DNA of 64,000 nt from Iamia majanohamensis (GTDB lineage: Bacteria; Actinomycetota; Acidimicrobiia; Acidimicrobiales; Iamiaceae). Positions within the stretch are counted from its first letter, which is position 1; each line of letters begins with the position of its first letter. Location: assembly GCF_028532485.1 (NCBI RefSeq), contig NZ_CP116942.1, forward strand, positions 3,100,001-3,164,000, written 5' to 3'. Below, in pieces: positions 3,047 to 22,945 of the stretch. The notes under the pieces are model-generated. The model ran no database searches and was not told where the DNA came from. It saw only the letters and a list, made by a program, of their open reading frames with translations. The position numbers and the translations under genes are program-made.

Positions 3047-3097
3047 GGCTCCCGGGAGCATCGCCTCGCGCTGCCGGCGCGCGGCCGACGACCGACC

Positions 3098-17304: not shown

Positions 17305-18684
17305 ATGTCGGCGTTGGCGGACCGAGGACGGCGGAGACCCACCTGTGCGCGGCGCGCCACGATCGTCGCAGCGGGCCTCACGCTGGCGACCGGCGTGCTC
17401 GCAGGGTGCATGCCGACACGGACACCGCTGTGGACCGCGAGCGGGTCCGGAGACACCTTCGAGTCCGGCTTCGTCACACGCGACGTCGGCGACGACATCG
17501 CGGTCGAGAGCACCGACCTCGCCCTGCACACCGAGGCCCTGCCGACCAACACCGGGACCAACTCCCGCATGCTGATCTGGCCGACCGGCACCCGTGCGGT
17601 CACCGATGCCGAGTCGTGCGCGACCTGGACCCGTCGCGACGGGCTGTACGTCCAACAGGGCGCCGCGCTCCGGGTCACGCGCTCCGGCAACCGCGTCCGC
17701 GCCGTGACGGTGACCCAGAACATCGTCTACGGCGCCGGGTGGGTGTTCAACGTCCACACCTGGGACACCGCCCAGGCCAAGCCCAGCACCCAGATCGGTC
17801 AGATCAACCTCCGATCGACCTTCTTCGCCGACCCCACCCGCCCGCCGCCGTGGGGGTTCTGCGCCCGAGTCATCGGTGACCGGGTCGCGATGAAGATCTG
17901 GGACGCGGATGACCAACAGGAACCGGCCTGGGGCGACCCCCGCCACGGCGGGGCGATCAACCTCCCCACCGGCTGGCAGATGCCTGGACAGGCCGGGTGG
18001 TACATCGGCCACCTCGCAGCCGGCGACAGCGCCGACTTCGCCGCCGCCTCCACCGCCACCTACGACCCCACCCCCGAACCGGAACCGGTTGCAGGGTGGG
18101 TCAACGACCCCGCAGGGCCCGGGCGACGTACCGCTGTCATGGCTGACTCCCTCGTCAGTCGCCACCAAGACGCATGGCGCACCGGACCGCTCGCCTCCGA
18201 CGGCCCCCTCGCCCTCTGGGCCACCAGCGGCGCACCCTTCGACGCCCCCGGAACCTGGGTCCCCACCCTGGTGCCGTTCCCTGAGGTTGCGGTGCTGGCC
18301 CAAGGGGCGAACAGCGCCTGGCCGCTGTTCGGCAGCGACGGGTGGACCGACGCCGACCGCGCAGCCCTCGACCGAGCCGCCCACCGAGCGCTCGCCGGCA
18401 CCCGCGTCAAGGGCGGCTTCCCCGGGGTGAGCTGCGTCGTGCTGGTCACCATCGGCTACCCCGACGGAGTCCACCCCTCGGTCAAGGAGAACGACGACAA
18501 CGCCAACGCCGACATCCGGGCCAAGGCCACCACCTCACCCGAGTACCGCCTGGCCGACTGGCAAGCCGCCAGCGCCGGACAACCCTGGTACGAACCCGAC
18601 GGCCTCCACCTCACCGCAGAAGGCTCCACCGCCTACCAACAGATCATCACCGACGCCGTGCGATCCTGCTCACCACCCGCCTGA
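17305..18684 (+). CDS. Lipoprotein with SGNH-hydrolase-like C-terminus
   Basis: 459 residues. The N-terminus has a signal segment ATIVAAGLTLATGVLAGC with a good lipobox (LAGC, lipidated Cys near 35). The middle region (about 40-210) resembles a beta-rich carbohydrate-binding or concanavalin-like fold (QINLRSTFFAD, AMKIWDADDQQEPAW). The C-terminal part from about 260 has AVMADSLVSRH in the position of the nucleophile Ser block and ends with EPDGLHLTAEGSTAYQQIITDAV, the Asp-x-x-His block of SGNH esterases. It probably acts on a surface glycan or ester; the substrate is unknown. Element cargo. Confidence 0.65.
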   Translation: MSALADRGRRRPTCARRATIVAAGLTLATGVLAGCMPTRTPLWTASGSGDTFESGFVTRDVGDDIAVESTDLALHTEALPTNTGTNSRMLIWPTGTRAVTDAESCATWTRRDGLYVQQGAALRVTRSGNRVRAVTVTQNIVYGAGWVFNVHTWDTAQAKPSTQIGQINLRSTFFADPTRPPPWGFCARVIGDRVAMKIWDADDQQEPAWGDPRHGGAINLPTGWQMPGQAGWYIGHLAAGDSADFAAASTATYDPTPEPEPVAGWVNDPAGPGRRTAVMADSLVSRHQDAWRTGPLASDGPLALWATSGAPFDAPGTWVPTLVPFPEVAVLAQGANSAWPLFGSDGWTDADRAALDRAAHRALAGTRVKGGFPGVSCVVLVTIGYPDGVHPSVKENDDNANADIRAKATTSPEYRLADWQAASAGQPWYEPDGLHLTAEGSTAYQQIITDAVRSCSPPA

Positions 18685-19033: not shown

Positions 19034-20329
19034 TCAGCCGCCGGGGGTGCTGGTGCTGGGGCCGGTGGTTGGTGGGGGCGGTGGGTCGTCCCGGTCGGGG
19101 TCGGCGAGGCGGTCTGGCAGGCCGAGGTTGGCGAGTCGGTCGGTCCATTCCACGCCGGCGGGGAAGGCGGTGACGGCGGCGGTCCAGGTCGCGCCGTCGA
19201 CCGGGCGGAGTCCTGCCATCAGGTCACGGAGGTCGTCCTCGTCAGCCGGCTCGGTGGCGGGTTCCGGGCCGTTGGCGGTAACGAAGATGTCGACCCCCGG
19301 CGCGAGGGCCAGTAGCGCATCCGGTCCCTGGGGGCCGGGGACGCTCCACACCTCGCCGTCGGTGCGGAGGCCGTCGACCAGTTGGGAGCCGTCCTCGGGC
19401 TCGATCCCCCGGGAGATCCCGCCGTCGGCGTCGCCCACCCCTGTGGGACGGCCACGCGTTCCGGTGGCGGCGAGGAGGTAGGCGGCCCGCACGCCTTCAG
19501 AGCTCTCCACTGTGACCACGACGAGGGGCTCGAGCGTGGGGCCTGGGTCCGGCTCGCCGCCCGCCAGCGGGCCGGGATCGACCGGGGTTGCCTCCGGGCG
19601 GGTCTGGTCCGACCAGCGCTCGAGTCCGCTGCCAGCATCGAGGGCGATCTGCCGTCCGTTGCTGTTGCGCCACCGGTCGGCCAGGTCGAGAAGAGCCTCG
19701 AGCGGGACCCCCGTGCTGGACAGGACCAGGACCTCTCCTTCGCCGGGCATCAGCAGCCTCGACGTGGCCTCGGCACCGGCGTCTTCGGCCGACTGGGCGA
19801 CCGTCCAGACGGGGTGGTCACCTGGGTTCCGGTCGAGCTGGGTCGCGCCTGCTTCCTCCCACCGGTCGGTGGCGCCGGTGAGCGAGGTGACCGGGACGAC
19901 GTTGACGAAGAGGCGGGTCGTGTTGTCGTCGTCCAGGGCGGTGGGAGGGACGAAGAGGACCTCTCGGGTCCAACCGGAGGAAAGGGCACCCGAGACCTCC
20001 ACGCCGACGATCGACCAGCCCGGGCCGGGCAGGTGATAGCCGGAGGCGCCTGCACCGCTGGCCACGGGCTGGCCGTCGTCGTCGGAGACGTCACCCGACG
20101 CCCGCACCACGGCGAGGGCACCGACGACACCGATGGCCACGACGATGAGGATGGCGGCGGCGGTGAGGATGCGGGCCCGGTCGGGCCGCCGACGCACCTC
20201 GACGATGGCAGCGTCGGACCCGGTGCGCAGCGCGTCGAGGTCGGGGCGGACGGGGTGGCGTTCGGCCTCGGCGATGAGGGTCGCCCGCAGGCGATCCTCG
20301 ACGTTGGTGTCGGGGGCTCGTCGGCTCAC
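19034..20329 (-). CDS. Single-pass membrane protein, probable regulator of the adjacent sigma factor
   Basis: 431 residues from GTG at 20329, which overlaps the TGA of the sigma factor gene (GTGA). A cytoplasmic N-terminus of about 50 residues (VEDRLRATLIAEAERHPVRPD) precedes one transmembrane helix (about 54-76). The rest is a large extracytoplasmic domain ending in a Pro/Thr-rich tail. This layout and the coupling fit an anti-sigma factor, although no zinc-binding HxxxCxxC motif is present. No enzyme motif seen. The same two-gene layout recurs at 58183-60040. Confidence 0.65.
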   Translation of the reverse strand: MSRRAPDTNVEDRLRATLIAEAERHPVRPDLDALRTGSDAAIVEVRRRPDRARILTAAAILIVVAIGVVGALAVVRASGDVSDDDGQPVASGAGASGYHLPGPGWSIVGVEVSGALSSGWTREVLFVPPTALDDDNTTRLFVNVVPVTSLTGATDRWEEAGATQLDRNPGDHPVWTVAQSAEDAGAEATSRLLMPGEGEVLVLSSTGVPLEALLDLADRWRNSNGRQIALDAGSGLERWSDQTRPEATPVDPGPLAGGEPDPGPTLEPLVVVTVESSEGVRAAYLLAATGTRGRPTGVGDADGGISRGIEPEDGSQLVDGLRTDGEVWSVPGPQGPDALLALAPGVDIFVTANGPEPATEPADEDDLRDLMAGLRPVDGATWTAAVTAFPAGVEWTDRLANLGLPDRLADPDRDDPPPPPTTGPSTSTPGG

Positions 20330-20826
20330 GGCTCCAGCTCCTTCTTCAGCGAGGCGAGGCCCCGGCGGATGAGCGATCGGGCGGTCGAGGGACGGGTGTC
20401 GAGCAGGCGGGCGACCTCGTCGGTGCTGAGATCGGCGTAGTAGCGCAGGATGAGGGCGTCGCGACGTCGAGGCGGCAGGCGGCGCAGGGCCAGCCAGACC
20501 TCGTCGAGCTCGGGCGGCAGCGGAGGCGGATCGACCGGGTCGGGACCGGAGTCGGCGGCTCGGTGGCGCTCGGCCACTGCTCGGCGGCGCCCGGCGCTGC
20601 GACACAGGTTCACCACGATCGTCCGCAGGTAGGCGCCGGGCTCTTCGATGTCGTTCAGGCGGGGCCGGAGGCGGAGGAACGCGTCCTGCACGAGCTCCTC
20701 GGCCAGGCCCCAGTCACCGACGAGCAGGTGCGCCAGCTTGACCATGGGGGCGTGCTCGGCCCGGTACAGGTCCTCGATCTGGTCCCATTCCTCGGCTGCC
20801 GTCGGATCGTCCTCGCGGTCGGGCAT
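20326..20826 (-). CDS. ECF-type RNA polymerase sigma factor (SigE-like), internal start within the longer frame
   Basis: 166 residues from ATG at 20826 (MPDREDDPT). This is the normal length for a stand-alone SigE-type factor with regions 2 and 4 and a short linker. The stop overlaps the start of the membrane partner gene. If this ATG is used, the sigma factor is made alone even though the upstream glycosyltransferase reads into it. No ribosome site better than a weak one was found, so fused and separate products are both possible. Confidence 0.7.
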   Translation of the reverse strand: MPDREDDPTAAEEWDQIEDLYRAEHAPMVKLAHLLVGDWGLAEELVQDAFLRLRPRLNDIEEPGAYLRTIVVNLCRSAGRRRAVAERHRAADSGPDPVDPPPLPPELDEVWLALRRLPPRRRDALILRYYADLSTDEVARLLDTRPSTARSLIRRGLASLKKELEP

Positions 20827-22470
20827 GGTCGCCGTCGGTCCCTCGTCCACACTCCAACGACGCGTGAGCGCCGTGGAATGTTGCAGGCCGACCGGGTGCC
20901 GGTCCCCTGCCGCAGGTGGCCCTTCGTCCTCCGGGCCGTCGGCGTCGACGGTGCCAGAGCTCGAGGGGATCGTCGCACCTGGTGGCCTGTCGAGCGCAGT
21001 GGCGTCGCCGCGTGCCCGACCGGGACGCCACGTGGTCATCCTTCGTCCCACCAGGAACAGTGGGAGCGCGAGGAGGAGCGGGTCGATCGTGGCTCGGAAG
21101 CGGTCGTTCTCACCGAGCTCCACCATCGCAGCCCCCACGACGAGAAGCCCCACGGCCGATGCGGCGACGATCCAGGTGACCTCGTGCGGCGGCCATGTCT
21201 CCGCCCGGTCTCGCCAGCCTGCGGAGGCGAGACGCACCAGCCCGAGGCCACCGCGACCGACGACGACGAGGAACCCGGCGATCAGCGTGATCGACACTTC
21301 GATGGGCAGCTGCTCCCATCCGAGCAGCGGCAGGTTCCAGGTGTCCATCGGGACCGCTGTCCCGACGGGAAGCAGCACGACGGAGCCGACACCGTCCATC
21401 GAGGTCCGCGTTGGTGCGCGAGACCCGGTGAAGCCGACGGATGGGTCGTCGGTGCCGAGGGGGGTCACGGCGAACGCGATCGCGAGCGCCGCCCCACGGC
21501 TCCGCAGGTAGTCGACCGGGTGCTCTCGGGCGAGCCTGGTCGCGTTGTGACGGCTCTCCTCGTACAGGGGCAGGTAGCAGGAGTGATTGAAGTTGGCCAC
21601 CTCTCGGGGGGCGTCGCCCTTGGTGGATCGCGAGATCGCCCGGTGGCGTTCGTCAGGACGGCACGGCTCCCGGTCGGGATAGGCCTCGATCGATCTCCAC
21701 GGCGCCTGGGTAGCCAGTGGCGTGACGGTGCCGTCAGCCACATCAGCGGCCACGGCATCTTCGTCGAGCGGTGCGACGACACCACGCTGGGCGTTGAACC
21801 CGGCCCAGCTGGACAGGGTCGCCTGGTCGAACAGCACCTGGTTCTTGCCCATCCACCCGCCCACGACGACCAGCGGAACGGCCACAGCGATGGCCACGGC
21901 TCTGGCGGGCACGGGCCGGGCGATCGCCACCAGAGCAAGGACGGCGAGGAGCCACAGAGGGTGGAACACGCTGCGGACCATCACCAACGTCGTCAACACC
22001 GTCGAGAGCCCGACGAGGGTTCCGGGTCGTGGCGAGTCGACGTGGCGCTGGACCAGCCACAGAGCCAGCACGACGAGTGTCGCCAACGGCACCTCGTAGC
22101 TGCCCTGGACGACCGTCCGCAGAGCCGACGGTGTCGTCAACGCCACGCCGGCAGCGGTGCCGGCGAGCACAGGGTGCGCGCCCCAACGCGAACCCAGAGA
22201 GACGAGCAGCAGGCCCGTCACGATCAGGCAGGCGAAGTACAAGACGAAGAGGGTCCCGATCGGCGGGGTCGGCGACCACCGCAGCACCGAGCCGACGAAC
22301 AGGTTGTACAGCGGTGGCTGCGTGTGGAGGTACCAGGTGCTTCCCAGCGGATCAGCCCGGAGCACACCCAGATCCACCAGCTGCCAGCTGACCGCGAGAG
22401 CCCTACGGTCAAGCGTGGCGCCGTTGCGCAACATGCTCGCGAACATGCCGGCGACCGTGGCAACCACCAC
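20326..22470 (-). CDS. GT-C-type membrane glycosyltransferase continuous with an ECF-type sigma factor
   Basis: One uninterrupted frame of 714 codons from GTG at 22470 (open to an ATG at 22662). Residues about 1-500 form a multi-pass membrane protein. It has STWYLHTQPPLYNLF near 45-59, typical of mannosyltransferase-like GT-C enzymes, and many hydrophobic helices. A Pro/Gly-rich linker follows. From about 549 comes a complete sigma factor with region 2 (LAEELVQDAFLRL, PGAYLRTIVVNLCRSA) and region 4 (LPPRRRDALILRYYADLSTDEVARLL). I checked the linker codons from 21060 to 20826 and found no stop. The glycosyltransferase has no stop of its own, so its product must carry the sigma domain unless a frameshift occurs. 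The start is uncertain. Confidence 0.65.
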   Translation of the reverse strand: MVVATVAGMFASMLRNGATLDRRALAVSWQLVDLGVLRADPLGSTWYLHTQPPLYNLFVGSVLRWSPTPPIGTLFVLYFACLIVTGLLLVSLGSRWGAHPVLAGTAAGVALTTPSALRTVVQGSYEVPLATLVVLALWLVQRHVDSPRPGTLVGLSTVLTTLVMVRSVFHPLWLLAVLALVAIARPVPARAVAIAVAVPLVVVGGWMGKNQVLFDQATLSSWAGFNAQRGVVAPLDEDAVAADVADGTVTPLATQAPWRSIEAYPDREPCRPDERHRAISRSTKGDAPREVANFNHSCYLPLYEESRHNATRLAREHPVDYLRSRGAALAIAFAVTPLGTDDPSVGFTGSRAPTRTSMDGVGSVVLLPVGTAVPMDTWNLPLLGWEQLPIEVSITLIAGFLVVVGRGGLGLVRLASAGWRDRAETWPPHEVTWIVAASAVGLLVVGAAMVELGENDRFRATIDPLLLALPLFLVGRRMTTWRPGRARGDATALDRPPGATIPSSSGTVDADGPEDEGPPAAGDRHPVGLQHSTALTRRWSVDEGPTATMPDREDDPTAAEEWDQIEDLYRAEHAPMVKLAHLLVGDWGLAEELVQDAFLRLRPRLNDIEEPGAYLRTIVVNLCRSAGRRRAVAERHRAADSGPDPVDPPPLPPELDEVWLALRRLPPRRRDALILRYYADLSTDEVARLLDTRPSTARSLIRRGLASLKKELEP

Positions 22471-22945
22471 GGCGACACCCCCCGCCCGTGCACTTGCCGA
22501 CCATCGACAGTCCTCCTCCCCCTTCCGCCTTCCCCCACCCCCAGCACCCGGCAACCCGCGGGCCTGGCACCTTCCCCGCGCCCGCCGCAACACGCCACCG
22601 ACAGAGCAGACGTTCCCGTCAGCGGAAGCGCCAAGGCCACCGAGAGCTGTCTCCGCCTCCACACCTCAACGACGCGTGGCAACCGCCCGATGTTGCACGC
22701 AGTCGATGACGGCACCGCTGCTCGGGGCCGGAGCAGACAAGGGAGCGTCGGAGGGGGGCGGCCCGACGTCAAAGCCCTATGGCTTGACCTGCCCACCGAG
22801 CCTCATGCCACCCACGACGTACTCATCAGCGCTGCCGGGAGTGCTCAGGACCGAGGCCGCTCACCGAGCCCGATTTCGGAGAGGTCGTTCACGACCCGGC
22901 GATCGGGGACGTCCGGTCCAAGCGGGCCCATGGGAGAGTGGCCTG
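22471..22945. other. Upstream region of the glycosyltransferase frame, no clear gene
   Basis: About 475 bp between divergent genes. The glycosyltransferase frame stays open to 22662 but the extra residues look non-coding (Gly/Arg-rich). A strong GGAGGAGG-like site near 22507-22520 precedes an ATG that is out of frame with the glycosyltransferase, so a start error or old frameshift is conceivable. Confidence 0.4.

Follow-up and report, generated by a model that had tools for sequence, protein, structure and literature searches.

We describe an open frame on the minus strand of a 64,000-nucleotide stretch of Iamia majanohamensis DNA (contig NZ_CP116942.1, positions 3,100,001 to 3,164,000; hereafter the window), in which a glycosyltransferase (GT)-C-like membrane protein runs without a stop codon into an extracytoplasmic function (ECF) sigma factor. 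Two real genes do lie in one stop-free frame, and this was seen in this genome only. We consider it likely that the arrangement is an autoregulated operon of the ECF sigma factor and a membrane partner, preceded by a GT gene whose stop codon has been lost in this genome. In all likelihood the cell produces the sigma factor as a separate, free protein, and its join to the GT is probably a chance event in a single genome. The features concerned are listed here in window coordinates.

22668 to 22697, minus strand: promoter-like element ahead of the GT frame, TGCAAC-N17-CGTCGTT, with the same hexamers and spacing as the sigma element.
20326 to 22662, minus strand: single open frame of GT, linker and sigma factor, 778 residues plus stop, as read in window and assembly.
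22489 to 22662, minus strand: leader, or 5' untranslated stretch, ahead of the GT homology; its coding score (z 1.10) is not above that of the other frames.
21028 to 22488, minus strand: GT-C-like polytopic membrane protein, residues 59-545, with homologues, a strong coding signal and weak family matches.
20851 to 21027, minus strand: linker, residues 546-604, with little or no coding signal and containing the promoter-like element of the sigma gene.
20856 to 20885, minus strand: promoter-like element of the sigma gene, TGCAAC-N17-CGTCGTT, its core shared by the upstream regions of the most similar sigma homologues.
20326 to 20850, minus strand: ECF sigma factor, probable leaderless start at GTG 20850 or ATG 20826, stop at 20328-20326, from Pfam regions and coding signal.
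19034 to 20329, minus strand: membrane partner of 431 residues, a putative anti-sigma factor, its GTG at 20329 overlapping the sigma stop, from its open reading frame (ORF) and the partner of a paralogue.

The frame opens at GTG 22662 and closes at TGA 20326 (778 codons), and the identical stop-free frame is present in the single-contig 4.58 Mb assembly (G000:C1:3120329-3122662). Its GT-C-like part covers approximately residues 59-545 and its ECF sigma part residues 613-778, with a linker of about 60 residues and no stop codon between the two. The read-through claimed in an earlier note on this DNA therefore holds, although the frame begins about 190 bases before position 22470, where that note had placed its start. 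An open linker is in itself unsurprising, since base-shuffled versions (67 codons, 74% G+C) remained stop-free in 35% of 20,000 trials and the other two minus-strand frames across it are mostly open too, one having its first stop only at 20716 and the other stopping at 21038 and next at 20657.

The coding signal drops within the linker. Using a codon table trained on 33 ORFs, some of them shadow frames, coding scores (z) of 4.2-6.1 were obtained for 67-codon chunks of the GT part, a strong signal, while the linker scored 1.34 over residues 546-575 and 0.81 over residues 576-604. The score was back up at 4.53 over residues 605-631, just ahead of the sigma factor (GTG 20850). G+C content by codon position was 0.78/0.70/0.73 for the linker (residues 546-612), 0.71/0.52/0.85 for the GT part and 0.81/0.48/0.89 for the sigma part; that of the leader at 22489-22662 was 0.74/0.71/0.69. 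The frame advantage over residues 546-604 was 0.007, a value equally low in 0.5% of 914 control windows of 59 codons. These controls came from 26 hand-picked window ORFs (25 of 34, plus the partner) on which the codon table was also trained, and presumed shadow frames, the fused frame and the gene at 17305-18681 were dropped from them. The AlphaFold2 confidence score (predicted local distance difference test, pLDDT) of the linker was near 30 and was not used as evidence, because the last third of the GT part is low as well (below 65 at model residues 338-490) and a low score does not single out the linker; the first 330 residues of the GT part and the sigma blocks were mostly above 87. The linker stretch has the appearance of ordinary intergenic DNA in which the sigma gene has its own promoter.

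The promoter-like element within the linker is TGCAACATTCCACGGCGCTCACGCGTCGTTG, and the element before the GT frame is TGCAACATCGGGCGGTTGCCACGCGTCGTTG, with a spacer of 17 bases in both; we take the hexamers to be ECF-type -35 and -10 elements. The same genome has a further, paralogous ECF sigma gene (G000:C1:2706413-2706913; L002 and L053), which is 63% identical to the window sigma factor, is likewise followed by a coupled partner and carries a near-identical element that differs in one base (CGTCGGT for CGTCGTT). In the 4.58 Mb genome, TGCAAC-N16-18-CGTCGT occurs at 3 sites, 2 of them here (reversed-pattern control, 2). The pattern GCAAC-N17-CGTCGKTG occurs at 4 sites (control, 0), namely the linker, the GT, the paralogous sigma gene and one coding-looking site, and GCAACAT-N15-CGTC at 8 (control, 1), 3 of which are the linker, GT and paralogue elements. 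Genome sites at 1831778 and 2917751 were rejected as chance-looking, falling within other coding frames or at their starts.

The core of the element, GCAAC-N16-18-CGTC, is conserved before close sigma homologues. It was found within 250 nt upstream at 8 of 25 non-window places with a sigma homologue, and at 1 of 4 further ones (L084), where 0.0155 would be expected per gene from its rate in all sequence examined, both strands; the loci behind these counts overlap and some sites are counted more than once. The homologues were taken at tblastn E<=1e-10, at which the weaker matches L005 and L006 fall out. Divided by identity, with a 50% line that was drawn after viewing the table, 7 of 8 non-window homologues at or above the line carry the core, as do 2 of 21 below it. 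The spacer is 17 bases in 7 of the 8 sites of the first set, and 18 in L057 and L084; the homologue L086 has no core upstream. Among the papers listed in a literature search, none gave a clear match to the motif. We predict that this sigma factor recognises the element as a promoter.

With respect to the sigma factor itself, regions 2 and 4 both scored above their Pfam cut-offs (Sigma70_r2, 36.0 bits against 24; Sigma70_r4_2, 54.4 against 25.7), and TIGR02937 matched at 56.1 bits (cut-off 42.9). The earlier note had called it a complete SigE-type sigma factor: complete it is, but the SigE family TIGR02983, while the best-scoring named subfamily, falls below its curated cut-off (118.2 versus 141.55 bits). 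The in-frame GTG 20850 lies 9 bases past the CGTC of the sigma element, just as GTG 22662 lies 9 bases past that of the GT element, and in the paralogue an in-frame GTG 10 bases past its CGTC is followed by a similar N-terminus (VDDDGPGTATEP versus VDEGPTATMP). Because this spacing is nearly the same at all three genes and the N-terminus of the paralogue is similar, a leaderless sigma start at GTG 20850 is likely, with ATG 20826 as the alternative.

The coupled membrane partner is present as had been described, with its GTG at 20329 overlapping the sigma stop. The same start/stop overlap (offset -4) was seen in 18 of 28 sigma homologue rows, the window included, the other rows having another offset or none printed. 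From its N-terminus, which looks cytoplasmic, the partner continues through a single hydrophobic helix to a long outer part; it is 29% identical to the partner of the paralogue. It gave no NCBIfam match and no Pfam match above cut-off, and its anti-sigma role is therefore put forward as putative, from its position and architecture. Taken together with sigma regions 2 and 4 and the gene's own ECF-type promoter-like element, conserved in homologues, this arrangement resembles the canonical autoregulated ECF module with a co-transcribed membrane anti-sigma factor. It differs from that module in the partner's lack of a Pfam match above cut-off and in a sigma frame that is open upstream into the GT gene. 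Cross-talk between the window sigma factor and its paralogue is possible. Two such sigma genes also stand close together on each of two contigs of other genomes, L055 (G021 contig 428) and L056 (G014 contig 59); in the latter the match of the second gene ends at residue 140 of 166, and that gene may be broken. A run of 703 open codons upstream of a sigma homologue in L056 proved to be only a shadow frame of the neighbouring partner gene.

The GT-C-like part has homologues of up to 51-53% identity. It is polytopic and resembles GT-C glycosyltransferases (ArnT/PMT/GT87-like) weakly, but reaches no family cut-off: Pfam GT87 scored 17.6 bits against a gathering score of 25, and a resemblance to PMT_2, seen in 3 of 9 GT homologues scanned, was below cut-off in all of them. 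Its model gave a weak Foldseek match to ArnT (5f15; E 0.065, probability 0.97, TM-scores 0.22/0.29) and a weak resemblance to PglB (6gxc; E 0.12). No anti-sigma-like domain of the zinc-finger type or DUF2275 was detected in it by Pfam at E<=1, and no anti-sigma-like domain among the NCBIfam matches listed (25 of 66).

In relatives, GT and sigma genes are separate in the stretches examined, a finding which the earlier note had named as telling against its fusion. Among the matches listed from 61 genomes (at most 17 candidates scored per genome), the only GT-sigma join without a stop was the window's own. A scan of the order (397 genomes, scoring the top 2 candidates of each at E<=1e-34) gave no joined GT and sigma frame in another genome; it showed 12 matches to the GT, spread over 11 other genomes, and 8 to the sigma factor alone, including the paralogue. 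We examined 45 GT loci from named genomes, mostly Acidimicrobiales and other Actinomycetota but also Hydrogenedentota, Myxococcus and a few others, and none had a sigma homologue (E<=1e-3) within the flanks examined. The same was true of 24 further, partly overlapping GT stretches, so that no GT homologue examined has a sigma homologue beside it, and none of the stretches around sigma homologues contained a GT homologue. The C-terminal part is reached by 29 GT matches; in 27 of these the protein ends within 10-69 residues, and in none of the 29 does the match continue into a sigma factor or through a stop. In L106 and L111 the GT continues for 305 residues into another domain. Only the GT and linker served as query against 24 family genomes, so that this comparison bears on GT ends rather than on the fusion; with the same part of the window frame, a first contig scan turned up no relative. 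An apparent GT-to-sigma match, G022:C311 (39-694), was rejected on direct reading, which showed the GT ending at a TGA; the stretches examined contained no sigma homologue. The sets of relatives are not independent: L090-L095 appear to be contigs of G003, G012, G016, G020, G019 and G022, and L106, L108 and L112 apparently overlap with G347, G265 and G279, respectively. Among the papers listed in literature searches, none reports a GT-ECF sigma fusion in its title or the opening of its abstract.

Several observations weigh against the account of a free sigma factor behind a GT gene that lost its stop. Over the whole linker (residues 546-612) z is 1.96 and the frame is slightly the best of three on its strand. 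Scores as low as that of the linker also occur in 4 of the 71 coding windows prone to disorder, and the linker's lack of coding signal is therefore not decisive alone. The sigma homologues L085 and L088 (49.7% identity) and L058 (52%) have no element. None of 14 GT homologues carries the element within 500 nt upstream of its extrapolated GT start (only about 200 nt being available in L052), although in L048 a site with a 16-base spacer lies about 550 nt upstream. Control of the GT by this sigma factor is thus not conserved and would, as far as seen, be peculiar to this genome. If the sequence is correct, ribosomes on the GT gene meet no stop before that of the sigma factor, and any GT transcript would then yield the fusion.

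It is unlikely that the GT's own stop is missing through a fault in sequencing or assembly, whether a miscalled base, a missing segment or an insertion or deletion of one base just before 21038. Such a fault would agree with the stop present in all GT homologues whose end lies on the contig examined, and with a TGA in the neighbouring frame at 21038-21036. However, 21035 to 20717 is stop-free in all three frames, so that a one-base length error helps only in the few codons before 21038, and the GT can be followed in its frame by homology up to about residue 540. Were the stop at 21038, the GT tail would moreover fall a few residues short of even the shortest tails printed for homologues (L049 and L052).

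Still less probable is a functional membrane-tethered sigma factor, the face-value reading of the earlier note, in which the fusion would be the working protein and the sigma factor perhaps freed by proteolysis. The frame is open in a single-contig genome, and the tail that follows the last hydrophobic stretch is basic, which would suggest a cytoplasmic location for the sigma factor. Tethering of ECFs is as such already known: as described in the parts of PMC8999054 consulted, membrane parts are fused C-terminally in IutY (ECF243), ECF48, ECF52 and ECF53 and N-terminally, with DUF2275, in some ECF36, and these extensions resemble anti-sigma factors. The window frame is like these in joining a sigma factor to transmembrane helices, and like some ECF36 in having them N-terminal. 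It differs, as far as that account goes, in an extension that is GT-C-like, found in one genome, attached by a linker of low coding signal and accompanied by a separate partner; no transmembrane extension common to the sigma homologues was found among the matches listed or in the 45 GT loci, and the window case thus has neither a shared extension nor an anti-sigma-like domain. With little or no coding signal in the linker, a promoter-like element common to close sigma homologues inside it, a coupled membrane partner already present and no stop-free join or sigma neighbour in the relatives above, tethering as the sigma factor's way of working is not borne out.

We therefore favour the reading in which the GT gene lost its stop codon in this genome and, as the GC-rich intergenic stretch happens to be stop-free, the two frames became joined. 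Transcription from the linker promoter, with translation from GTG 20850 or ATG 20826, would supply most of the sigma factor in free, soluble form, a product of about 19-20 kDa compared with about 78-83 kDa for the fusion. It would activate its own promoter and that of the GT, and the partner would presumably restrain it at the membrane. Transcripts from the GT promoter may also yield the GT-sigma fusion, a by-product for which no sign of selection was seen.

Three neighbouring or related genes were noted in passing. The gene at 17305-18684 on the plus strand is secreted-looking, convergent with the operon and without a Pfam family at E<=0.01; we take its end to be an SGNH-hydrolase-like motif. 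The extra domain of L106 and L111 looks hydrolase-like, presumably by its motifs GDSNLG and DGVHY, and L080 (G347), apparently the same contig as L106, gave no Pfam family at E<=0.01. In the same-genus genome G003 (L007, oriented 3090-3093, and L046), a possible TTG start shares bases with the GT stop (TTGA) and would open a frame that by eye resembles an acyltransferase.

As a regulon hypothesis, the ECF sigma factor, and perhaps also its paralogue, may drive its own operon and the GT-like gene through TGCAAC-N17-CGTCGTT. We think it improbable that the cell holds two pools of this sigma factor, one free and made from the internal promoter and the other GT-tethered and made from the sigma-driven GT promoter. 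Were this so, a membrane enzyme would carry its own regulator, acting as a buffer or feedback device, and a sigma factor joined to an enzyme, as in the tethered pool, would be unusual. For GC-rich genomes, these data indicate that intergenic DNA without stops can pass for a designed fusion, and that a promoter-like element in the linker gives this away.

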